NCBI GenBank assembly: GCA_016212185.1
Contig: JACRGX010000065.1
Span: 1-59,489, forward strand
DNA: 59,489 nucleotides
Reading direction: 5' to 3'
Origin: Nitrospirota bacterium
Lineage (GTDB): Bacteria; Nitrospirota; Thermodesulfovibrionia; UBA6902; DSMQ01
Part shown: positions 35,377 through 52,933 of the stretch, one piece after another
Layout: each line of letters opens with the position of its first letter
How positions within the stretch are numbered: position 1 is the first letter of the stretch
Notes under the pieces: generated by a model
Databases searched by the model: none
The model's input: only the letters and a program-made list of their open reading frames with translations
What the model was told of the DNA's origin: nothing
Position numbers and translations under genes: made by a program

Positions 35377-35829
35377 CTATTCTTCTTTTTTTATGATTTT
35401 TTTTGCAGTATCAAAAACACCTTCCTCGGCAAATGTAATTGCCGTCATGGCTCTTTCAATCTTTTCAGTGAATGCCTCTTTGATTTTGGCTACGAGAAGA
35501 TCAATGTCCGCAGGCTTCCGCAGGAAGTCAAATCCGCCGAGATTTTTTGCCTCTACGGCGTTTTTTTCCGTGCCGTGTCCTGTCAGGATAATGACCTGTA
35601 TGGCGGGTTTTATATTTTTTATTTCCCTAAGCACATCTATGCCGTGCAGTCCCGGCATTTTCAGGTCCAGGACAATCACATCAGGCTCTATTTTCTTTAT
35701 AAAAGATAAAGCCTGAGCGCCATCGTAAACCGTATCCACCACAAGCTCCCGCATTTTGAGCCGCTGTGCAAGAGTGTTTACAAAATCAACTTCGTCATCT
35801 ACGAGCAAGACTTTAATCGCCTTTTTCAT
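35377..35829 (-). CDS. Response regulator with FAEEG tail
   Basis: The 150-residue receiver has DD at 11-12, phospho-acceptor D55 (VLDLKMPG), ILTGHGT and RKPADI. The tail after the receiver reads IERAMTAITFAEEGVFDTAK and matches short segments in the 64-residue protein at 55284 and the stress-type protein at 55505. There is no output domain. It stands 46 nt below the degenerate kinase gene and 25 nt above the next receiver, in one run. Confidence 0.92.
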   Translation of the reverse strand: MKKAIKVLLVDDEVDFVNTLAQRLKMRELVVDTVYDGAQALSFIKKIEPDVIVLDLKMPGLHGIDVLREIKNIKPAIQVIILTGHGTEKNAVEAKNLGGFDFLRKPADIDLLVAKIKEAFTEKIERAMTAITFAEEGVFDTAKKIIKKEE

Positions 35830-35874
35830 CAGACCCCCCTTTCGTTTATTTTTTATTTGAGTATTTTAAAAAAT

Positions 35875-36558
35875 TTATTCGTCCTGTTGTCCGGAGTTTA
35901 AAAATACAGGGAGCGTAATTACTGTTGTTTCATCCCCGGTTTGACAGGAAATATCCCCTCCCATCTTATTAATTATCATATGCAAAACGCTCTTATCATA
36001 ACACACAGAATCTGCATTTGTTTCCTTGAAATCTCCCTTAGGGATAATGCTTATTGACACCGACCCGTTTGTATATGCTGTTTTTATAATTATCTTGCCG
36101 CCGTAATCCAGCAAGTCCATACTTTTTTCAAGGAGGCAGAAGATGAGAAACTGCAGTTTTGACGGACTGTTGTAAAGCGAGGGTATGTTTTGGGCAAAAT
36201 CTTTCTTAAAGCTGAGTTTTTTCTGATTGGCAGTTCTTTGAATAAGGCTAAGAAGTTCCTCCAGGCATTCGTTTAAGTTAAATGTGGACACGGACATATC
36301 CATTCTGTGTCCAAGGCGGTTGAGGTTTGTGCAGAGCAAAGATGTTTTTGTAATCTGATGCTCAACGGATTCAATGATTTTCAGACACTGCGCAGCATTA
36401 GGAGCTGTCTGCCCCAGTGTTATTAAATCCCCTATTAATCCGTTTGACTCTTTTATAATGGCAAGATGGTTTTTGATCTCATGAGTAAAGACCGAAAGCA
36501 CCTTAGCTATAAAGCTTAGCTGAGAGTCTGCCGGCATGTCTTCTTCCATGTGTTCCAT
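35875..36558 (-). CDS. Histidine-kinase-like protein with degenerate ATPase domain
   Basis: The 227-residue soluble protein has an H box with H26 (FTHEIKNHLAII), a dimerisation helix pair and an ATPase-like fold. The N-box Asn residues are missing (FCLLEKSMDLL where NLLxNA is expected) and there is no DxGxG. It may accept or pass phosphate (Spo0B-like) rather than bind ATP. The ATG at 36558 has AAGGA 8 nt upstream. An in-frame start at 36660 would translate a REP-like repeat (VIPAKAGIQ) and is rejected. Confidence 0.75.
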   Translation of the reverse strand: MEHMEEDMPADSQLSFIAKVLSVFTHEIKNHLAIIKESNGLIGDLITLGQTAPNAAQCLKIIESVEHQITKTSLLCTNLNRLGHRMDMSVSTFNLNECLEELLSLIQRTANQKKLSFKKDFAQNIPSLYNSPSKLQFLIFCLLEKSMDLLDYGGKIIIKTAYTNGSVSISIIPKGDFKETNADSVCYDKSVLHMIINKMGGDISCQTGDETTVITLPVFLNSGQQDE

Positions 36559-36577
36559 CTTATTATTCCTTATTTTC

Positions 36578-36654
36578 GTCATTCCGTCCCGACGCATCGG
36601 GAATGCGGAATCCAGAAAGTCGTTTTCCTGGATTCCCGCCTTCGCGGGAATGAC
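36578..36654. repeat. REP-like palindrome upstream of the kinase-like gene
   Basis: It runs from GTCATTCCGTCCC to CGCGGGAATGAC with inner arms (CCCGACGCATCGGG and CCCGCCTTCGCGGG). Translated, it would give the VIPAKAGIQ peptide often mis-annotated in such genomes. Confidence 0.85.
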
Positions 36655-36715
36655 ATACAAAGCAGTTATTTTATTTTGAATACCCCACCCCGAAAAATCG
36701 GGACTGCAGGGCGGT

Positions 36716-37090
36716 TCATTTTACACTGCGTTTTTTCATGGCATTGTCAATTTTTACAGTCAATTCATTTATCTCCACCGGTTTTAGAATATATTCAAAT
36801 ACCTCTGCTGTTATTTCCGGTTTCACATTGTCTGTCATCTGACCGGTCAGTATTATGACCTCAATAGCCGGGTTGAACTGTTTGACGATGCCGAGAAGTT
36901 CAAAGCCGTTCATCCCAGGTATTCTCAGGTCCAGCAATACAACGTCCAGCGGCTTGCTGCGCACAGCGGTAATAGCGTCTTCAGCGCAGTACACCGCCTT
37001 TGCTTCGTAATCGCGCAAAGTCAGCCTTTCTGCAAGGGTTGAGGCGAATTCCACCTCATCGTCAACTATAAGCACTTTGGCGCGGCTCAT
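36716..37090 (-). CDS. Single-domain response regulator
   Basis: The 124-residue receiver has DDE at 10-12, phospho-acceptor D54 (VLLDLRIPG), ILTGQMT and LKPVEI. It overlaps the upstream kinase by the ATGA of the shared stop and start, so the two are a cognate, translationally coupled pair. An in-frame ATG at 37102 is an alternative. There is no output domain, so it probably acts by protein contact. Confidence 0.9.
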   Translation of the reverse strand: MSRAKVLIVDDEVEFASTLAERLTLRDYEAKAVYCAEDAITAVRSKPLDVVLLDLRIPGMNGFELLGIVKQFNPAIEVIILTGQMTDNVKPEITAEVFEYILKPVEINELTVKIDNAMKKRSVK

Positions 37091-38553
37091 GCGGTTTTCC
37101 ATTCAGCCGGTTTCCCGTGCACCGGCAGTTCAATTGTAAAAGCTGTTCCTTGGCCCGCCTCGCTGTCAACGTAAATATTCCCACCCAAGTTATTTATAAT
37201 ACCATATGTGATAGAAAGACCAAGCCCGGTTCCTTTTTTCCTTTCCTTAGTCGTAAAAAAGGGTTCAAAGATGCGGTTTAAGTTTTCCGGCGGTATCCCG
37301 CATCCGGTATCTTTAATAGCTATTCTTACTGTGTCTTTATCTTTTAAATCTGTGGATATTGTTATAACTCCTCCTTCTTCAACAGCATCAATGGCATTTT
37401 TTATCAGATTAAGAAACACCTGCTGGAGCTGTCCACGGTCGCTCTTAACCGGAGGCATATTTTCCTGAAGATTTATTTCCAGACGTATGCTTCTGTAGAA
37501 CATCTCTTTTTCCATGAACTCTGAGGCTTCTTTAACTGTGCTATTGATATTGAAGGCCTCAAACGCAATATCAGATTTTCTTGCAAAACCGAGTATGCGG
37601 TGGGTAATTGTTTTACAGCGGTTTATGCTGTCAAGTATGGCGCTGATCAGTCCCAGGAACTTCTCTTTATTGCCGAAGTCCTCTGATATTTCAAGGATGT
37701 CCTTCATAAGGCCGGCTTTTTCATTGATTATGGCAATTGGGTTGTTTATCTCATGCGCCACTCCTGCAGAGAATTTTCCCAGTGTAGCGAGTTTTTCTGT
37801 TTCCACAAGCTGAGCCTGTTTCTCATTCAGTCTTGTTATAGCAAGTTTAAAGGCTCCCATGGTATCCCGCAATTTATCCTCCATGATGTTGACCGATGCG
37901 CTCAGAGATGCAAGCTCATCCCGGCCCCTGATTTTAATTTTTTCTGAAAAATCACCGGCTGCAATTTTCTTTGTTACCTCCTCAAGTTTTTTTATCGGCT
38001 CGGCAATACTTTTTGCAAGTCGTATATTTATAATTGCTCCAAGTACTACTACTATCAGTATGACAAATATAAGGAGACGGGAGGACAATTGCAGCCGTCT
38101 ATTTATATCGGCTCTTTCCTGCTTTGAAAAGGCATCTATAAAAGATTCTATCTGCCTTGCATCTGACCTCACGACGTCTATGGAATCCTGCTGTTTGAAG
38201 TTTTCTCCGATTCTGTTAATGTGCTGTTCGTATTCGGCTGTTGCCGCCAGTATCATTTCATAGTTGGCTTCCCCTAATTCCTTTACCATTTCGCCCTTAA
38301 TGCTGAGTATATGTTTTTTAAAAATCTCAAGATAGTTTTTGAGTTCTCCCATGCTGCTCTTGTCCTTATACAGCAGGAGATTTTTCTCGTATCTCCTTAC
38401 CTCAAGAAGGGCATTGGTTATATCATCAGCCGTCTCAACAAACTTTAGTCCCTTTGTAATTGTGCGTAATTCATTGTATGTAAAAAACCCGCCCATTACA
38501 GCGAGTAATATGTAGAAACTAACGGCAAGGTGTAGTTTGTCGCGTATTTTCAT
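37087..38553 (-). CDS. Membrane sensor histidine kinase (4HB/HBM-type sensor, HAMP)
   Basis: The 488-residue kinase has TM1 (about 8-27), a helical external sensor with LLEVRRYEKNLLLYKDKSS, TM2 (about 157-177), HAMP, and HisKA with the phospho-His in SAGVAHEINNPIAII. The full ATPase has N box LIKNAIDAVEEGG, G1 DTGCGIPPENL, F box and GTGLGLSITYGI. The sensor motif RRxEKNxxLY also occurs in the kinase at 57579, so both may sense related ligands. It is coupled to the receiver at 36716. Confidence 0.93.
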   Translation of the reverse strand: MKIRDKLHLAVSFYILLAVMGGFFTYNELRTITKGLKFVETADDITNALLEVRRYEKNLLLYKDKSSMGELKNYLEIFKKHILSIKGEMVKELGEANYEMILAATAEYEQHINRIGENFKQQDSIDVVRSDARQIESFIDAFSKQERADINRRLQLSSRLLIFVILIVVVLGAIINIRLAKSIAEPIKKLEEVTKKIAAGDFSEKIKIRGRDELASLSASVNIMEDKLRDTMGAFKLAITRLNEKQAQLVETEKLATLGKFSAGVAHEINNPIAIINEKAGLMKDILEISEDFGNKEKFLGLISAILDSINRCKTITHRILGFARKSDIAFEAFNINSTVKEASEFMEKEMFYRSIRLEINLQENMPPVKSDRGQLQQVFLNLIKNAIDAVEEGGVITISTDLKDKDTVRIAIKDTGCGIPPENLNRIFEPFFTTKERKKGTGLGLSITYGIINNLGGNIYVDSEAGQGTAFTIELPVHGKPAEWKTA

Positions 38554-38658
38554 ATCCGATAAAGTTTAATAGTTTGGGGTGTTTTTTCTCAAGTGTTAAT
38601 TAAATAGCACCATGACTCATGGTGTTGAGTTTCTTGAATTCTATGTTATTATTTCCTT

Positions 38659-38719: not shown

Positions 38720-40000
38720 TCAGTGCAGAAGATTGTACTGAATGATATACGCTGCCACGCCGCAGAAATACCCGGCAAAGGCAAGCGGTCCGATACGGCG
38801 TGCATACCAGAAAAACTCTATCTTTTCAAGCCCCATGGCAGCCACGCCCGCAGCCGAGCCGATTATCAGGATGGAGCCTCCGGTGCCTGCGCAGTAAGCC
38901 ATGAACTCCCAAAGGAATGAGTCCGGAGGGAACTGGGTTAAGGGGTACATGCCCATGGAAGCGGCAACCAGTGGAATATTATCTATGACAGCGGAACAAA
39001 GGCCGATAATAATGACGATAAGAGACTGGTTGCCGAGTTTGGCGTCAAGCCACCCGGCAAGGGCAGGGAGCATACCGTTAGCGGAAAGGGCAGCCACGGC
39101 AAGCAGGATGCCGATGAAGAACACTACAGATGCCATATCAATGCGTTTGAGCGCTTTGGATAGAGTGAGGTGTTCCTTCACTTCTGAAGGCTTTTCACGA
39201 TGCAGTATATTACCCGTCAGCCATAGCACGCCGAGGGCAAACAAAATGCCGAGGTATGGGGGTAAATGCGTAACTGCCTTGAATATCGGAACGAAAATCA
39301 GGGAGCCCATGCCCATAAAGAACATAAAGGTTTTCTCAAACTGAGAGGTGGCAGAGGCGCCGTTTTCAACTGTGTCTGGAGGCACGACATTTCCCTTGAG
39401 GAAAAAGGATGCAATGACAAGAGGAACCAGCAAATTAATAGTGGAAGAAATCCAGAGTCCCTTCATTATATTGCCCGTGGTTATTTGTCCGCCTATCCAG
39501 AGCATGGTAGTAGTCACATCGCCGATGGGGGTCCAGGCGCCGCCGGCATTGGCGGCGATGACGATGATACCCGCAAAGAAGAGACGCTGCTTATGGTCTT
39601 TAAGCAGGCGCTTCATTAAAGCGACCATCACAATAGTTGTAGTCATGTTATCTAAAATGGAAGACAGGTAAAAGGAGATGAAGCCTATTATCCAGAGCAG
39701 GCTTGACAGTTTCGTTGCCTTAATGCGTGAGGTGATGACCTCAAAACCTCCGTGAGAGTCAGTCACTTCTACAATGGTCATGGCGCAAATCAGGAAGAAT
39801 ACGATTGCCGCTGTTTCAGCCAGCTTTTCCGTGAGCTGATGGCTGACGCCTTCAACGCCTGCCGGACTTGCAAAGGAGTATAGGGTCCACATTAAGCCCG
39901 CGGCAATCAGCGCTGTGGCGGATTTATTGATTTTGATAGGGTGCTCAAGGGCAATCATTGAGTAGGCTAATACGAATACAATTGCGACCAGGGTCATCAT
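38720..40000 (-). CDS. nhaD: NhaD-type Na+/H+ antiporter
   Basis: The 426-residue protein has about twelve spans. It has the NhaD signature: an early LEHPIKINKSATALIAAG, the DSHGGFEVI loop, SSILDNMTTTIVMVALM and GGAWTPIGDVTTTMLW, with buried acidic residues for cation binding, then AVIDNIPLVAASMGMY. It exchanges Na+ for H+ and supports pH and sodium balance. GGAGG lies 9 nt before the ATG. It is the last gene of the GntR-CBS-DASS-carbonic anhydrase-NhaD run, where it could recycle sodium taken in by the DASS symporter. Confidence 0.92.
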   Translation of the reverse strand: MMTLVAIVFVLAYSMIALEHPIKINKSATALIAAGLMWTLYSFASPAGVEGVSHQLTEKLAETAAIVFFLICAMTIVEVTDSHGGFEVITSRIKATKLSSLLWIIGFISFYLSSILDNMTTTIVMVALMKRLLKDHKQRLFFAGIIVIAANAGGAWTPIGDVTTTMLWIGGQITTGNIMKGLWISSTINLLVPLVIASFFLKGNVVPPDTVENGASATSQFEKTFMFFMGMGSLIFVPIFKAVTHLPPYLGILFALGVLWLTGNILHREKPSEVKEHLTLSKALKRIDMASVVFFIGILLAVAALSANGMLPALAGWLDAKLGNQSLIVIIIGLCSAVIDNIPLVAASMGMYPLTQFPPDSFLWEFMAYCAGTGGSILIIGSAAGVAAMGLEKIEFFWYARRIGPLAFAGYFCGVAAYIIQYNLLH

Positions 40001-40015
40001 AGGATTAATCCTCCG

Positions 40016-40729
40016 TTAAAATTTTATTTCCTCTCTTACGTTATTTACGACTACGTAGCCCGAGACATTCCCTACATAGTTAGTGTCAGGTCCGTGTATC
40101 TGAATGCCTGTCAGAAGGGCGTAATCGCTTTTAGCCTTGTCAATAATTGTGTTTATCGCATGCTCAAGGTCTTTTTGTATAACCCGCTGCGTTATTTTTG
40201 TCAATTCAAGCAGGTCCGGGATATGACCGTAAGGTATCTCCCGCAGGAGACGCCTCTTAAGCAGGCTCTGCTCAAGGTCTATGTCGTCCATTGAAAGATT
40301 TAATGAACCCGTTGTCATTTCCTTCTGAAATGCGCACAGGGCGCCGCATGCGGTGGACTCTTCCTCTCTTCCGGTGCGCATGCAGGCGCCGAGCCGTCCG
40401 TCCTTGTCAATTGCAATGTGGGGCAGGGCAAAGTAGACATAGCGCTCCCTGCCGTTCACATTCGGGGCATGGTGCATTGCGGCTGCCAGACCGGTCTGAC
40501 CGGCAAAAAACATACCTCCGAGGCTTGAAAGATTGAATGCCTCACCCCAGATGTGTTTGATAACACTGCGCAGTGATTGTGAGATTTCATCCCTGCAAAT
40601 GCATACAGAGGCGATTGAGTTTTCATCGCTGAACCCTAATTCTTTAAGCACGGCGTATGTTTTTTTAACGAAATCAACCTCAGTGTATATGCTGTCAAAA
40701 TACTTTTTTAAAATATTTTCATAATCCAC
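40016..40729 (-). CDS. LCIB/LCIC-type (theta-class) carbonic anhydrase
   Basis: The 237-residue protein matches the limiting-CO2-inducible B/C carbonic anhydrase domain. It has C45-R-D-E in SVCICRDEIS, WGEAFNLSSLGGMFFAGQTG, AAAMHHAPNVNGRERYVYFA, H104 in LPHIAID and C128 in STACGAL. The Cys/His/Cys spacing fits the zinc site, and D47 fits the Asp of beta-CA-like sites. It would interconvert CO2 and bicarbonate. The start is GTG behind AGGAGAG. It sits 13 nt below a DASS anion symporter and 15 nt above nhaD, so a role in handling bicarbonate with those transporters is likely. Confidence 0.82.
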   Translation of the reverse strand: MDYENILKKYFDSIYTEVDFVKKTYAVLKELGFSDENSIASVCICRDEISQSLRSVIKHIWGEAFNLSSLGGMFFAGQTGLAAAMHHAPNVNGRERYVYFALPHIAIDKDGRLGACMRTGREEESTACGALCAFQKEMTTGSLNLSMDDIDLEQSLLKRRLLREIPYGHIPDLLELTKITQRVIQKDLEHAINTIIDKAKSDYALLTGIQIHGPDTNYVGNVSGYVVVNNVREEIKF

Positions 40730-40742
40730 TTACTCTCTCCTC

Positions 40743-42260
40743 TTACTTTAACACCGTCGGCATTCCCAAAATCGGCCATAACGAGAGTATAAGCGCGCCG
40801 ATTATTACGACTAAGACCACACTCAGCAATATTCCGTGCTTGAAAAACTCTCCGGTTGAAAATTGTTTAGATTCATAAGCGATTGCATTCGGGGCGGCTC
40901 CGATAAGAAGCACAAAAGGCATTCCCGCTGTAGCGAGCGATGCATAGAAAATTACATCAGGCGAGACGCCGAGATATCCTGCTATAACGAGCGATACAGG
41001 GAGTGAAATGGCTATTGCCGCCACATTCATAATGAAGTTTGTCATTATAAGGACAAATGTTGCGATGCTTAGAATAAAAACAAGCCAGTGCGCATTCTGG
41101 AACATGACAAGCCAGTTAACAGCCATCCACTGCGCGGCGCCTGTTTTCCACAGGCAAAAACCAATGCTCATAGCGCCGCTGAAAAGGAGGATAATGTTCC
41201 AGGGGATTTCTTCAAGCTCTTTGACCGTGAGTATCTTAAAAATAAAGAATATGAGTGTTGATATAAGAATTAATGCCGCCCTGTCCATGGACTTTAATGC
41301 CGGCACAAAAGACTGCAGGGACATGATTATTACAACGCTGATGACGGTTATGATTACAAACTTCTCGTTTTTGGTCATGGGACCCAGCTCTTTGGAGAGT
41401 TTTTTGACCTTTTCCTTTAGGCCGGAAATGACATCCTTTTCCGGCTTTAGGAATATCATCAGATAGCCCCATATCAGAAAGACCATCAGCCATCCGAGGA
41501 AGAACATGTATTTGCTGAGCTCAAAAAAACCAATGTCCCTGCCGGTAAATTCCTTAAACATTCCCGCGCCTGCCGCCGCGCGCGCAGAGCCTAAGAATGT
41601 AATGATGCTCCCCGCGCCTGCCGCATAAGCCATGCCGATGAAAAGCGCTTTGCCGAAGTTTGTCTGTTTGTCGCCTTCGCCGTAGAGCGCATAAATAGCC
41701 AGCAGAATCGGGAAGACGGTTGCCGCCGCAGCCGTATGCGCCATGAGATGCGCAAGCCCTGCGGTTACTACAAGCGCGCCTAATAATATCATGCTGGTTT
41801 TTTCTCCTACTATTTCCAGCATTTTATACGCAAGGCGTTTTGTTAGTCCGGTTGTTGAAAATGCCAGACCCACAACAACAGAGCCGAAGATGAACATAAC
41901 GGACGGGTCCATAAAGTCCTTGAAGGCGTCTTTTGCAGAGCGGATGCTGAATAACGCCTGAAACACGCCGATTGCTATGGACGTAATACCGATCGGCAAT
42001 ACCTCAAAAACCCACCATACTCCTGCCATTGCAAACAGGGCAATGGCTCCTTTCCCCTCGTTTGATAAAGGGAATGCCTTGCCTGCGGGGTCCACGGCAT
42101 CTTTCCACGATGGCATAAAATAGATAAGAAGGAAAAGTCCCAGTCCCAGCAAGATGAAAAATACACGCTTCCATTCAAACGGGATTTTTGGAGCTGCAAT
42201 TACTATATCTTTCGGAGGCTCCGGCAATCCCCGAGTTTTTTTAATATCTTTATCTGTCAT
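40743..42260 (-). CDS. DASS/SLC13-family sodium:anion symporter
   Basis: The 505-residue protein has about twelve spans and a basic N-terminal tail. DASS marks include the VWWVFEVLPIGITSIAIGVF start, the first substrate-loop region GSARAAAGAGMF and the late GAAPNAIAYESKQF signature. Relatives carry dicarboxylates, sulfate or other anions with Na+. Next to a carbonic anhydrase and NhaD, bicarbonate is an attractive substrate, but this is inference. AAAGGAGG precedes the ATG. It lies 13 nt below the CBS gene. Confidence 0.9.
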   Translation of the reverse strand: MTDKDIKKTRGLPEPPKDIVIAAPKIPFEWKRVFFILLGLGLFLLIYFMPSWKDAVDPAGKAFPLSNEGKGAIALFAMAGVWWVFEVLPIGITSIAIGVFQALFSIRSAKDAFKDFMDPSVMFIFGSVVVGLAFSTTGLTKRLAYKMLEIVGEKTSMILLGALVVTAGLAHLMAHTAAAATVFPILLAIYALYGEGDKQTNFGKALFIGMAYAAGAGSIITFLGSARAAAGAGMFKEFTGRDIGFFELSKYMFFLGWLMVFLIWGYLMIFLKPEKDVISGLKEKVKKLSKELGPMTKNEKFVIITVISVVIIMSLQSFVPALKSMDRAALILISTLIFFIFKILTVKELEEIPWNIILLFSGAMSIGFCLWKTGAAQWMAVNWLVMFQNAHWLVFILSIATFVLIMTNFIMNVAAIAISLPVSLVIAGYLGVSPDVIFYASLATAGMPFVLLIGAAPNAIAYESKQFSTGEFFKHGILLSVVLVVIIGALILSLWPILGMPTVLK

Positions 42261-42273
42261 TATATTGCCTCCT

Positions 42274-42795
42274 TTATCCCTTTAAAATAATGTTGGAAAT
42301 TTCATCAAATATCTCTATCAGTCTGACCACGCCGACAAGCTTCTTTTTGTTTTCCAGAACGGGCAGTAAAACCAAATCATTATGAAGCATAAGATACGCC
42401 GCTTTGGTAATGGGATCGCCGGGCTCAACAAAGACCTTAGCGGGAACCATGACTTCGCTTATCGGTTTTTCAGACAGTTCTCTGGACTTTTCATCAAAAA
42501 ATGTATCCCATAAAAGAGACAACCCTGCCTCATTCTCCGCCGGAACCTGCGCCTTTGCGGTAGGCTTCAGGAATTTCGGCTCAAGCCCTTTCAGAATATC
42601 CTTAAGACTCAAGGTGCCCACGAGGTTATACTTTTCGTCAAAGACCAGTATTGCCAGAGGCCGGATACATTTCTCATCAACAAGCAATGACTTTTTGGTA
42701 ACCCCCATAGCTTGTTTTATTGAAAACCAGTAGGGGATATGAGGAAACTCAAAAACGTCCATCATCAAATCCTGTACAACTTTACTTTGTGACAT
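42274..42795 (-). CDS. CBS-domain protein of the transporter cluster
   Basis: The 173-residue soluble protein has two CBS-like halves. Residues 1-80 contain VVQDLMMDVFEFPHIPYWFS and VGTLSLKDILKG. Residues 100-170 contain ISEVMVPAKVFVEPGDPITKAAYLMLHNDLVLLPV and VGVVRLIEIFDEI. Such proteins gate transporters or sense adenine nucleotides. AGGAGG precedes the ATG. It lies between the GntR gene and the DASS transporter, so a regulatory role for that transporter is likely. Confidence 0.85.
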   Translation of the reverse strand: MSQSKVVQDLMMDVFEFPHIPYWFSIKQAMGVTKKSLLVDEKCIRPLAILVFDEKYNLVGTLSLKDILKGLEPKFLKPTAKAQVPAENEAGLSLLWDTFFDEKSRELSEKPISEVMVPAKVFVEPGDPITKAAYLMLHNDLVLLPVLENKKKLVGVVRLIEIFDEISNIILKG

Positions 42796-42854: not shown

Positions 42855-43595
42855 TTACGACACCTTTCGTTCAAGTTCTAAAAAGAATCTAAACCGTTCC
42901 GGCTGTTTAATGGACCGCGTATATTGTATCTGAATTTCACCTGAATAAAAAAATTGTTCTATAAGCAGTGCGGCAGAGCCTTCCTGTAATTCCAATAAGC
43001 TGGATTCTTCGGCGCTGAGATATGCAATTCCAATGTAGCCTTTGACCTTGGTAATCTTTATGCTGTATTTTTTTTCAAGGACTTCAAGCAGGGAATTATT
43101 TTCTAAATCCTCATCTAAGAGCGGAGGACAAATATGATGCGGTATGTATGTTTCCTGCAGTAAAACAGGCTCATTGTCCACGAGGCGCAGTCTTTTCAGG
43201 TAAATCACATGCTTATCATCGTGAACATCTAATTTTAAACTTATGTCGTCTGTCGGCATCATTACTGTCTGTGCAAGCACCTTTGTAGTAAAAATTATTC
43301 CTGCCTCAAGCATTAATTCCTTAAAACTTGTCAGCATGGAAAGACCTTCGGGGATAATCCTCTTGCATACAAAGGTCCCTTTGCCCTGCTGTCGTCTGAG
43401 ATAACCTTGCCTTACCATCTCAGAGATTGCAAGCCGCACAGTTGCCTTACTTATTTCATATGTTTTGCATAGTTCTTCTTCTGTGGGTATCTGGGTATAA
43501 ACACTCCATTCCCCGCTCTCAATTTTCCCCCTTAATATTTCATAGAGCTGGACGTAAAGTTTCAGGGGGTGCTCTCTGTCAATTAGTTTTTCCAT
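42855..43595 (-). CDS. GntR/HutC-family regulator (UTRA domain), first copy
   Basis: The 246-residue regulator has an N-terminal winged helix with SGEWSVYTQIPTEEELCKTY, EISKATVRLAISEMVRQGYL and RRQQGKGTFV, then a UTRA effector domain. It is a paralog of 52175-52933. It has a perfect consensus promoter overlapped by an 18-bp palindrome, so it probably represses itself and perhaps the divergent PEP-synthase-like gene and the downstream CBS-DASS-carbonic anhydrase-NhaD run. The ligand is unknown; UTRA proteins usually bind small organic metabolites. Confidence 0.92.
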   Translation of the reverse strand: MEKLIDREHPLKLYVQLYEILRGKIESGEWSVYTQIPTEEELCKTYEISKATVRLAISEMVRQGYLRRQQGKGTFVCKRIIPEGLSMLTSFKELMLEAGIIFTTKVLAQTVMMPTDDISLKLDVHDDKHVIYLKRLRLVDNEPVLLQETYIPHHICPPLLDEDLENNSLLEVLEKKYSIKITKVKGYIGIAYLSAEESSLLELQEGSAALLIEQFFYSGEIQIQYTRSIKQPERFRFFLELERKVS

Positions 43596-43605
43596 TTTGG
43601 TAGCT

Positions 43606-43653
43606 GGTTATGTTATTATAATGTTATGCCTTATTCATTATAATAACATAACC
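43606..43653. promoter_or_regulatory. 18-bp perfect palindrome, likely GntR operator
   Basis: GGTTATGTTATTATAATG at 43606-43623 is the exact reverse complement of 43636-43653, with a 12-nt spacer. It overlaps the -10 box and part of the spacer of the gntR promoter. The core TATTATAATGTTATG recurs with one change before the second gntR at 52947-52961. Confidence 0.8.
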
Positions 43654-43665
43654 TTTGCTTGTCAA
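43637..43665 (-). promoter_or_regulatory. Consensus sigma-70 promoter of the first gntR
   Basis: On the minus strand TTGACA (43665-43660), 17 nt, TATAAT (43642-43637): perfect hexamers and spacing. Transcription would begin near 43630. Confidence 0.85.
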
Positions 43666-43703: not shown

Positions 43704-46343
43704 ATGCTTAATTTCTTAAAGCCATTCAAAAAGACTGGTGAAAGCCCGCCGGATGCTTTTAAGGAAGCCATTAAAAGCAAGTACAATATATTTCAGTCTC
43801 TTCTGACAAAGAACAATAATGTGCTTGAGCTTATGGCTGATATGGAGGAAAAACTCTCCGGTGAATACCTCTTTGACAGGCAGTATATAAATTCCAATGC
43901 GCGCTTAATTGCTGACGGAGTTTTAACAATCATTAAAAACCTTAATGCCCTCTCCGGTGATAAATACAAGCAGTTTTACGGACTATATAATGAGATTAAT
44001 AAAGAAATAGACAAAACCTTGGCGCACAAATCAGATGTTCCGGTTAGCGATTTAACCGTTCCCTTTGAAAATCTCACAGCCGGGATGTCGGATATTGCCG
44101 GCGGTAAAACAGCGCATTTGGGCGAAATAAAAAACCGTCTTAAGCTTTTGACCCCGGATGGTTTTACAATCAGCGCCTATGCATTTAAAAAATTTATGGA
44201 ACACAACAGGCTTACGGAAAAGATAAATGAAAGACTGTCTTTATTGAACATAAACAACATGGAAGAACTGAATAAGGCAGGCCAAGAGATACAGGAAATG
44301 ATAATAAGCGCAGAGGTTCCTGAGGAGTTACGGACGGCTATCAATAAAGCGGTTGAAAGTTTGAAGTTGAAATTGGAAGATTTGTCATTCCGGCTTGTCC
44401 GGAATCTTTCCGAAAAAGGATTGCCGACAAGCGGCAATGACAGCAACAAACAACAATCATTAATGGTCTCCGTCAGAAGCAGTGCAATTCAGGAGGACGG
44501 AGAGTTCAGTTTTGCAGGGCAGTATTCTACTTTTCTCAATGTGCCTGAGCGCCGGATCCTGCAGAAATACAAAGAGGTTCTGGCAAGTTTATTCACCCAG
44601 CGTGCTATTTTTTACTATAAGACAAAAGGCTTTGCTGAAGAAGAAATGGTTATGGCGGTCGGTGTATTACAGATGGTAAATTCAAGGGCAGGCGGGGTCG
44701 CATATACGATGGACCCGAATGACCCTGTGAATGACGCGGTCATAATTAATGCTGTACACGGGCTCGGGAAGACCGTTGTTGACGGAATGGTAAATCCTGA
44801 TTCTTACATGGTCTCAAAAAAGACAGGCGCCATTTTAGAAAAGAGGATTGCTGAACAGCAGATAATGCTTGTATGCAATCCTGATGGAGACATTAAAGAG
44901 GTTGATATCCCTGATGAGGTTAAGGGCAAACCGTGTCTTACTGATGAACAGATAAAGACATTATACGGGTATGCCGTGATTCTTAAAGACCATTATGCGA
45001 AACCTCAGGACATAGAATGGGCCCTTGACATGGACGGCAGGCTGTACATCCTGCAGAGCAGACCGCTGAGAATCCTGAAGGCGGAAGGTGAAGGATTAAA
45101 AGTTCCGAGAAGGATAGAAGGGCGCAACAGCCTGATTGATAAAGGGATCATTGCGTGCAAAGGCATCGGCGCGGGTAAGGCATTTGTGCTTAAGGGCGAA
45201 GAAGACCTGAAAGATTTTCCAGAGGGCGCTGTGCTTGTGGCAAGGCATACATCCACAAAATTCGTAACTGTCATGAATAAGGCGTCTGCCATTGTTACGG
45301 ATATCGGGGGAGCGACAGGACACATGGCGTCTATTTCAAGGGAATATCAGGTTCCGACAATCCTTGATACCGGAACAGCGACAACTGTTATTAAGAATGG
45401 ACAGGAGATAACAGTGGATGCCGTAAACTGCAATATCTATGAGGGAAAGGTTAATGAACTTATTGCGTACGCATTAAAAAAGAAAGAGCCTTTTAAAGAC
45501 ACGCATCTGTTTAAGGTTTTGGAAAAAACATTAAAATGGATAGTTCCTTTAAATCTGGTTGATCCCGAAGATGAGAACTTTAAGCCTGAATATTGTAAGA
45601 CATTTCATGATATAACACGGTTTGCCCATGAAACGGCAATGGCTGAGATGTTTCTGATAGGCGAGGGGCCTGATGCCGGGAAGTCCCATACGATTATACT
45701 AAAGGCAGGGATTCCTATTGACGCTCATATGATAGACATTGACGGCGGCATTAAAGCCGATATAAAAAAGGCAACTCATGAAGATATACTCTCAATTCCA
45801 TTTTCCGCATTACTTAAGGGGATGAGATGTATGAGATGGCCTGAGCCGAGGGCTGCCGATGCAAAGGGTTTTTTAGGCATGATTGCGCATACGGCATCTA
45901 TCCCTGAAGATGATATTTATAAAACTGCCGAGAAAAGCTTTGCAATAGTATCCGGCCATTACATGAATTTCAGCATAAGACTCGGCTACCATTTCTCAAT
46001 GGTAGAGGCATATGCCGGAGAGAATATGAATGACAATTACATTAAATTCTTTTTTAAGGGCGGGGGAGCCGCCGTAGACAGGAGATTAAGAAGGGTCAGG
46101 CTCATTACGGAAATCCTTAAAAAACTGGACTTCAAAGTCAATGCCGCGCAGGATGTGATAGATGCAATTCTTACCAAGTACAGGCAGGAGACTATAGAAG
46201 AAAAATTAGAGATAATGGGCAAACTGACAGCTTATACCAAACAACTGGACATGGTTATGTATAACGACGCCATTACAGACTGGTATATAGAGGAATTCGT
46301 TAAAGAACACATTAAAGAACAGCCAATAGGCAATAGGGAATAG
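43704..46343 (+). CDS. PEP-synthase-like protein with unusual C-terminal domain
   Basis: The 879-residue protein has a helical N-terminus (1-110) and a PEP/pyruvate-binding ATP-grasp domain (about 125-465) with GGKTAHLGEIKN, VSVRSSAIQEDGEFSFAGQ and LYILQSRPLR. The swivelling phosphohistidine domain carries H540 in GGATGHMASISRE. The C-terminal 280 residues do not look like the usual PEP-binding barrel; they include TRFAHETAMAEMFLIGEG, KGMRCMRWPEPR and SGHYMNFSIRLGYHFS. It may phosphorylate a different acceptor. Residues 227-247 are a REP-coded insert, and the last residues (PIGNRE) and stop come from an intergenic repeat. GAGG lies 11 nt before the ATG. Divergent from gntR. Confidence 0.82.
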   Translation: MLNFLKPFKKTGESPPDAFKEAIKSKYNIFQSLLTKNNNVLELMADMEEKLSGEYLFDRQYINSNARLIADGVLTIIKNLNALSGDKYKQFYGLYNEINKEIDKTLAHKSDVPVSDLTVPFENLTAGMSDIAGGKTAHLGEIKNRLKLLTPDGFTISAYAFKKFMEHNRLTEKINERLSLLNINNMEELNKAGQEIQEMIISAEVPEELRTAINKAVESLKLKLEDLSFRLVRNLSEKGLPTSGNDSNKQQSLMVSVRSSAIQEDGEFSFAGQYSTFLNVPERRILQKYKEVLASLFTQRAIFYYKTKGFAEEEMVMAVGVLQMVNSRAGGVAYTMDPNDPVNDAVIINAVHGLGKTVVDGMVNPDSYMVSKKTGAILEKRIAEQQIMLVCNPDGDIKEVDIPDEVKGKPCLTDEQIKTLYGYAVILKDHYAKPQDIEWALDMDGRLYILQSRPLRILKAEGEGLKVPRRIEGRNSLIDKGIIACKGIGAGKAFVLKGEEDLKDFPEGAVLVARHTSTKFVTVMNKASAIVTDIGGATGHMASISREYQVPTILDTGTATTVIKNGQEITVDAVNCNIYEGKVNELIAYALKKKEPFKDTHLFKVLEKTLKWIVPLNLVDPEDENFKPEYCKTFHDITRFAHETAMAEMFLIGEGPDAGKSHTIILKAGIPIDAHMIDIDGGIKADIKKATHEDILSIPFSALLKGMRCMRWPEPRAADAKGFLGMIAHTASIPEDDIYKTAEKSFAIVSGHYMNFSIRLGYHFSMVEAYAGENMNDNYIKFFFKGGGAAVDRRLRRVRLITEILKKLDFKVNAAQDVIDAILTKYRQETIEEKLEIMGKLTAYTKQLDMVMYNDAITDWYIEEFVKEHIKEQPIGNRE
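44384..44441. repeat. REP-like element translated inside the PEP-synthase-like gene
   Basis: GTCATTCCGGCTTGTCCGG, then AATCTTTCC, ending GCGGCAATGAC, is the same family as 33779-33843 and 52051-52126. It codes residues 227-247 just before the conserved VSVRSS motif, with no frame break. Confidence 0.85.
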
Positions 46344-52174: not shown

Positions 52175-52933
52175 TTACCTAATTCTTTCAAATTCCGTCT
52201 GAAATTTATATTTGTCAGTTCTGCCCAGAATCTTTGTGTATGCAATCGGTATGTCGTCAGAACTGAAAAAGAGCCTGTGAACAATAAGCGCTGCCGAGCC
52301 TTCGCCTAAGCCTAAATTCTTTGCATTATCTCCGGACGCCTGAGCCACCTCAATGGTTTGTATCATCTTAAATATTTTTCTGGTGCCTTTTTCCTGAAGC
52401 ACGGAATAAATTGAGCTGTGGGTAATGTCAAGTTTTTCAATAAAGGGAAGCATATTGTAGGGAATATAGGTTTCCTCAATGTATGCGGTTTCACCTCCGC
52501 TTGTTCTTTTACTCAGGATGTAGAATATCCTGTCATCGGTTTTTAAATATGCTGTTACATCAGGCGGCGCCTGTTGTACTCCTTTAAATAATATCTCCCT
52601 CTCCAAATGAGCTTCCCTGCCGAACATTTCTTCGGTAAGCCTTGTTTTCATGGCAAGCCCTACGACTGGAGATACAGAGCTGACAAAGGTCCCTTTGCCC
52701 TGAATTTTTGTAAGATAGCCGTCAGAGACGAGGTTAGTTACCGCCTGCCTGACTGTTATTTTGCTTACGTTATATTTTTTGCAGAGGTCTTCCTCAGTTG
52801 GAATCTGCTGTTCGGGCTGCCACTGCCCTGAGCTTATTTCCTCAAGAAATATTCTTGTGAGCTGGATATAAAGCTTTTCCTGATTCAGCCTGTCAATTAT
52901 TTTACCCTGATGTACTAATTGGCTATCTTGCAT
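52175..52933 (-). CDS. GntR/HutC-family regulator (UTRA domain), second copy
   Basis: This 252-residue paralog of 42855-43595 has the same winged-helix layout (SGQWQPEQQIPTEEDLCKKY, NVSKITVRQAVTNLVSDGYL, TKIQGKGTFV) and a UTRA domain. Its promoter carries the same core operator word as the first copy, so the two regulators may cross-control. The start codon lies only about 10 nt past the -10 box, implying an almost leaderless message or a second promoter. TauE module B follows. Confidence 0.92.
   Translation of the reverse strand: MQDSQLVHQGKIIDRLNQEKLYIQLTRIFLEEISSGQWQPEQQIPTEEDLCKKYNVSKITVRQAVTNLVSDGYLTKIQGKGTFVSSVSPVVGLAMKTRLTEEMFGREAHLEREILFKGVQQAPPDVTAYLKTDDRIFYILSKRTSGGETAYIEETYIPYNMLPFIEKLDITHSSIYSVLQEKGTRKIFKMIQTIEVAQASGDNAKNLGLGEGSAALIVHRLFFSSDDIPIAYTKILGRTDKYKFQTEFERIR

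Follow-up and report, generated by a model that had tools for sequence, protein, structure and literature searches.

A five-gene operon of a Nitrospirota bacterium appears to specify a module for the acquisition of dissolved inorganic carbon, in which bicarbonate uptake by a divergent carrier of the DASS family would be combined with a carbonic anhydrase of the LCIB family and a cation/proton antiporter. We hold this reading to be moderately probable, and we infer import of bicarbonate from the convergence of several lines of evidence. The operon lies on the minus strand of a 59,489-nucleotide stretch of DNA, hereafter the window, carried by a 2.33-Mb, 97.6% complete genome (G000:C65).

The gene order is gntR-CBS-DASS-LCIB-nhaD, running from 43595 down to 38720, with gaps of 59, 13, 13 and 15 nucleotides in that order; the tight packing of the carbonic anhydrase gene between the carrier and the antiporter, already noticed in a sequence-only reading of the window, is thus confirmed. 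The unit begins with a GntR/UTRA regulator (42855 to 43595, 246 residues, with PF00392 and PF07702), which holds the equivalent position in homologous loci, and continues with a CBS-domain protein (42274 to 42795, 173 residues, PF00571 at 45.3 bits), which probably regulates the carrier. Then follow the carrier itself (40743 to 42260, 505 residues), the carbonic anhydrase, of theta/beta-like type (40016 to 40729, 237 residues, with a GTG start), and an NhaD-type Na+/H+ antiporter (38720 to 40000, 426 residues), the gene of which falls outside the coordinates first given for the cluster (40016-42795). Upstream of gntR, a sigma-70 promoter (TTGACA-17-TATAAT, 43637 to 43665, minus strand) matches the consensus at 12 of 12 positions; one of the two arms of a perfect 18-bp inverted repeat of GGTTATGTTATTATAATG lies over the -10 box (arms at 43606-43623 and 43636-43653; 0.07 matches expected). 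The -35 box recurs in 24 of the 36 upstream regions of homologous units, and the core of the repeat, CATTATAA, in 26 of 36. This repeat is probably the operator of the GntR protein, and the simplest reading of the arrangement is that of a single autoregulated transcription unit, the full extent of which would go from the promoter/operator region (43606-43665) through a terminator-like hairpin placed 3' of nhaD by a consensus scan (38608 to 38624, minus strand).

The intergenic operator region is common to the unit and to a divergent gene coding for a PEP-synthase-like protein (43704 to 46343, plus strand, 879 residues, PF01326 and PF00391), a family that adjoins the unit in this divergent orientation in 24 loci, and which is possibly a co-regulated neighbour. 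The protein keeps its ATP-binding and mobile domains; the profile search found the PEP-utilizers_C domain missing, and the C-terminal 300 residues are unrecognised. Directly 3' of nhaD lie histidine kinases and short response regulators (35377-38553, minus strand), and many related loci likewise have two-component genes of related type after the unit. A second GntR-family regulator of the window (52175-52933, minus strand) is related to that of the operon (150 bits).

The survey of these genes was confined to the phylum Nitrospirota, where PF18599, the LCIB family, is present in 60 of 396 genomes. In the class, counted from genome lists that include fragments, 28 of 167 genomes carry both LCIB and the DASS subfamily linked to it, five the carrier only, seven LCIB only and 127 neither, so that the co-occurrence which the sequence-only reading had suggested looking for does exist (Fisher p about 2e-20, a value overstated because related genomes are not independent). 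LCIB comes directly after DASS in 33 loci, some of which are one genome present twice (29 non-identical DASS proteins). The CBS gene precedes DASS with a gap of mostly 5-17 nucleotides in homologous loci, in most loci the genes of the succession CBS-DASS-LCIB stand between a few and some tens of nucleotides apart, and the complete order GntR-CBS-DASS-LCIB-antiporter is kept in tens of them; taken together with the co-occurrence test, this excludes a chance association. The joint unit that had been proposed stands as a conserved operon, although NhaD is not a fixed member of it, being replaced by Mrp or by a MamN/ArsB-like carrier, and LCIB is missing from some similar units. In the closest relative locus (L002), LCIB is 90% identical to that of the window. 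Strict co-inheritance of DASS and LCIB was tested and set aside, the correlation of their distances being weak (r 0.24, Mantel p 0.046). Outside the class, Nitrospira-type genomes have LCIB without the LCIB-linked DASS subfamily, and in three such loci (L065, L066, L069) LCIB comes directly after a gene of the Na/Ca-exchanger family. Some further peculiarities may be recorded here: a small IVP gene (23S rRNA-intervening-sequence-type) separates LCIB from the antiporter, or DASS from LCIB, in L023, L028, L030 and L004, and one genome (G316:C34; L136, L075) has, at some 14-20 kb from its LCIB, another two gntR-CBS-DASS units, the DASS gene immediately before LCIB being a short remnant.

The carrier is a member of the DASS family (148.5 bits against PF00939, for a cut-off of 27), which falls narrowly under the curated cut-off of the NCBIfam model TIGR00785 dass (186.9 bits for 198.6). 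The LCIB-linked subfamily is sharply discrete: its members are at least 65% identical, three genomes stand at 46-48% and the others at about 33% or less. In VcINDY, a Ser-Asn-Thr motif is present at each hairpin tip, where it contacts the carboxylate (PMC9098524); the HPin hairpin of human NaS1 holds sulfate through Ser139 and Thr141 and Na+ through Asn140, and mutation of the equivalent residues reduced transport by NaDC1 (PMC10980263). The window carrier aligns with VcINDY and the SLC13 dicarboxylate and sulfate carriers over its whole length, but it differs from them exactly at these places. The motif table of the subfamily has A-H-T for the first Ser-Asn-Thr motif in 35 of 35 members and M-N-V for the second across the 35, save for one divergent exception with T-N-V, while the VcINDY loop GSPPN has become G[SA]AR[AG] in all 35, with a new Arg in the binding loop. 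Both motifs being replaced, recognition of carboxylate and of sulfate would be altered alike, and the protein therefore counts as DASS on grounds of ancestry rather than of a known substrate; it has no close relative among proven carriers of either type. Such a replacement suggests a changed substrate and by itself is no proof of bicarbonate. The Asn of the Na2 site is kept, and that of the Na1 site is His, which makes Na+ coupling plausible, not assured: of the sodium symporter that had been announced, the family (PF00939) is retained and the coupling is uncertain.

Uptake of sulfate is the main rival reading, because the hosts reduce sulfate. The carrier would then be a Na+:sulfate symporter feeding dissimilatory sulfate reduction, the antiporter would recycle Na+, and LCIB would be a passenger that helps to balance protons and CO2. 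The substrates of DASS proteins are diverse and do include sulfate (PMC5840216), the genome that carries the window possesses dsrA, as does nearly all of the class, and this genome has no SulP carrier. Yet the DASS subfamily occurs in just 33 of 167 class genomes, as against the near-universal dsrA, the HPin Ser and Asn that NaS1 and NaDC1 use have been replaced, and the conserved partner of the carrier is a carbonic anhydrase, with no sat, apr or dsr gene recognised in the operon. This narrow spread, the loss of sulfate-binding residues and the nature of the partner weaken the sulfate reading, which we regard as unlikely. The same diversity of DASS substrates (PMC5840216), and the PEP-synthase-like enzyme as divergent neighbour, would also fit with transport of another anion, such as carboxylate, phosphate or formate, LCIB handling CO2 from or for the corresponding metabolism; with no conserved catabolic gene for such an anion in the operon, and with the carboxylate motifs lost, this has a slim chance of being right.

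The gene that follows LCIB usually codes for a cation/proton antiporter, of unrelated kinds. NhaD (169.4 bits against NF038006, above the cut-off of 80; 385 bits against TIGR00775, below that of 577) occupies this slot in the window and in L002, L020, L023, L024, L027-L030, L059, L060 and L062. Other loci have in this place a MamN/ArsB-like carrier, the length of which is 456 or about 578 residues (L021, L022, L026, L058, L061, L079; L068, L071, L085, L094), and because its scores are under the curated cut-offs of every antiporter model, an antiporter activity is here a guess. A complete Mrp operon, with MnhE, MrpF, MnhG, MbhD, MbhE, MnhB, MnhC and two D-type subunits, is present in L003, L004, L005 and L025, and two loci (L070, L084) have no antiporter behind LCIB. 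That unrelated cation/proton antiporters come to occupy one and the same slot leads us to argue that cycling of Na+ (or H+) belongs to the function of the unit. Antiporters together with a carbonic anhydrase would also fit with pH control, and the direction of transport is not readable from sequence, but a unit meant for pH, Na+ and CO2 homeostasis or for bicarbonate export rather than for carbon supply is improbable, as a Na+ symporter engaged in export would need no Na+ extrusion behind it, and the hosts have CODH/ACS.

The carbonic anhydrase, assigned at first from recognised motifs, is borne out as a member of the LCIB/LCIC family by a full-length match to PF18599 (195.6 bits for a cut-off of 25; 203 residues, from 17 to 219). 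Its best relatives in the PDB are LCIB (5k5w, E value 1e-44) and LCIC (5b5x, 1e-43) of Chlamydomonas, diatom-type and other proteins coming far behind (1e-15 to 1e-12), and this closeness to the green-algal proteins over the diatom-type ones may have a bearing on the origin of the algal gene. No plasmid-borne relative was found in the plasmid search. What had been noticed as a Cys-x-Asp, His and Cys pattern turns out to be a complete active site: the Cys/His/Cys zinc ligands and the active-site Asp, Arg and His are all present, and C45, R46, D47, H87, H104, R118 and C128, aligned with Chlamydomonas LCIB, do not vary across the 46 relatives compared. Purified algal LCIB/LCIC showed no activity, which has been linked to disorder of His162 and Arg194 of LCIB (PMC5876011); to these two residues H87 and R118 appear to correspond in the PDB alignment, with a spacing of about 32 residues in both cases. 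The bacterial family, since these equivalents are among its invariant residues, apparently keeps an intact active site. That the window protein would be catalytically silent, a structural or regulatory partner of the kind proposed for algal LCIB/LCIC, agrees with the inactivity of the proteins to which it is closest, but is improbable given invariant zinc ligands and catalytic residues and an own genome devoid of beta-type carbonic anhydrase. The window LCIB shares with its Chlamydomonas counterparts the family, the fold (by homology), the zinc ligands and the active-site residues, and differs from them in that it is bacterial and belongs to a transporter operon, without pyrenoid or RuBisCO. 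AlphaFold2 models built on alignments of five sequences were too poor for use (pLDDT 43 for LCIB and 41 for DASS).

The host is a sulfate-reducing bacterium that probably fixes CO2: its genome has CODH/ACS (CdhC) and dsrA, and a family-by-family search found there no RuBisCO, beta-type carbonic anhydrase, DabA or SulP. The gamma-type probe, E. coli YrdA, had no match and was uninformative. Nearly every genome of the class has dsrA, and likewise CdhC, and neither gene separates the unit-positive from the unit-negative genomes. A beta-type enzyme is present in 4 of 4 genomes that have the DASS subfamily without LCIB, compared with 8 of the 28 that do have LCIB (p 0.014, a post hoc comparison in which one of the four, G397, has its DASS gene cut by a contig end, and which excludes G174 on account of the degraded state of its DASS remnant); it is equally common in unit-free genomes (9 of 30).

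As for substrate, direction, coupling ion and the roles of the CBS and GntR proteins, we may put forward the following scheme. The divergent carrier would import bicarbonate with Na+ (or H+), and the antiporter behind LCIB would expel Na+ again while maintaining pH; cytoplasmic LCIB would equilibrate bicarbonate and CO2, providing CO2 to CODH/ACS for the Wood-Ljungdahl pathway and bicarbonate to carboxylases. To judge from what is known of their families, the CBS protein would probably gate the carrier as a function of the adenine-nucleotide state, and GntR would repress the promoter via the palindrome until it binds a small ligand or metabolite. We favour this bicarbonate module because of the intact LCIB, the conserved CBS-DASS-LCIB order, the co-occurrence, the antiporter slot and the lost Ser-Asn-Thr motifs, as well as CODH/ACS in a genome without RuBisCO, beta-type enzyme, DabA or SulP, the beta-type enzyme of all four LCIB-less DASS genomes, and a parallel with BicA. 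Counted against it are the sulfate-reducing hosts, the sulfate carriers of the DASS family, the five class genomes with DASS only, the weak correlation of distances, the inactivity of the purified algal proteins, the His of the Na1 site and a possible gamma-type enzyme.

Prokaryotic carriers of inorganic carbon are known in few families, BicA/SulP, SbtA, BCT1 and Dab. DAB (DabA-DabB) takes up inorganic carbon by means of a carbonic-anhydrase-like part, and SbtA-SbtB does so with SbtB as a nucleotide-sensing partner; the present unit resembles them in these respects and differs from both by the family of its carrier, DabA being absent from 62 of 62 related genomes checked (those of L087 and L090 are outside this set). 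The system that comes nearest to the present one is that of BicA in Nitrospira and Aphanothece, where its gene clusters with those of Mrp or NhaB antiporters and the Na+ which these pump out was proposed to drive bicarbonate uptake (PMC7784846, PMC8115632). There as here, an anion carrier has Na+/H+ antiporters next to it and the cell also possesses a carbonic anhydrase (PMC7784846, PMC8115632), whereas the carrier is now a DASS protein, in a genome without SulP, and an LCIB-type enzyme is encoded within the operon. We propose that the present unit follows the logic of BicA and its antiporter, with DASS as the carrier and with a carbonic anhydrase of its own.

While ion-coupled uptake of inorganic carbon combined with a carbonic anhydrase is already known as a principle, the carrier has a fair chance of representing a new family of bicarbonate transporters. 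We would give even chances to the broader view that this DASS subfamily is a further independent bicarbonate-carrier family of Thermodesulfovibrionia-type bacteria, with an in-operon LCIB and an interchangeable Na+ pump, feeding carbon fixation of the CODH/ACS type, not of the RuBisCO type. A 2024 review of inorganic-carbon toolkits mentions neither LCIB nor DASS (PMC10880623), and our searches of the open-access literature brought up no account of a unit made of LCIB and DASS, of a part played by either in the uptake of inorganic carbon by bacteria, or of any DASS protein as an inorganic-carbon carrier. If the proposal is true, it adds DASS to the families of inorganic-carbon carriers, has LCIB act in bacteria within a transport module, and offers a compact, transferable group of genes with which bicarbonate could be taken up independently of concentrating mechanisms based on RuBisCO; the label 'sodium:sulfate symporter' in sulfate reducers may then conceal bicarbonate carriers.

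A second type of operon (L148, L149, L150, L151, L090) associates gntR, CBS, another DASS subfamily, a full Mrp set, a D-type subunit of the PRK12668 type and LCIB. The NuoL-like gene that adjoins LCIB in L087 and L090 was considered as a DabB-like subunit and rejected, since its match to Na+/H+ antiporter subunit D (PRK12668) exceeds the cut-off and since DabA is absent from the 62 related genomes mentioned. This second DASS subfamily is about 30% identical, the tip of its first hairpin bearing an H-D motif; the operon gntR-CBS-DASS2-Mrp is found in G246, G142, G269, G187 and G184. In G142 and G246, this operon and a PRK12668-LCIB piece each stop at contig ends, and because both end in this way they are probably joined. 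An unbroken gntR-CBS-Mrp-PRK12668-LCIB succession, without DASS, is present in G121.
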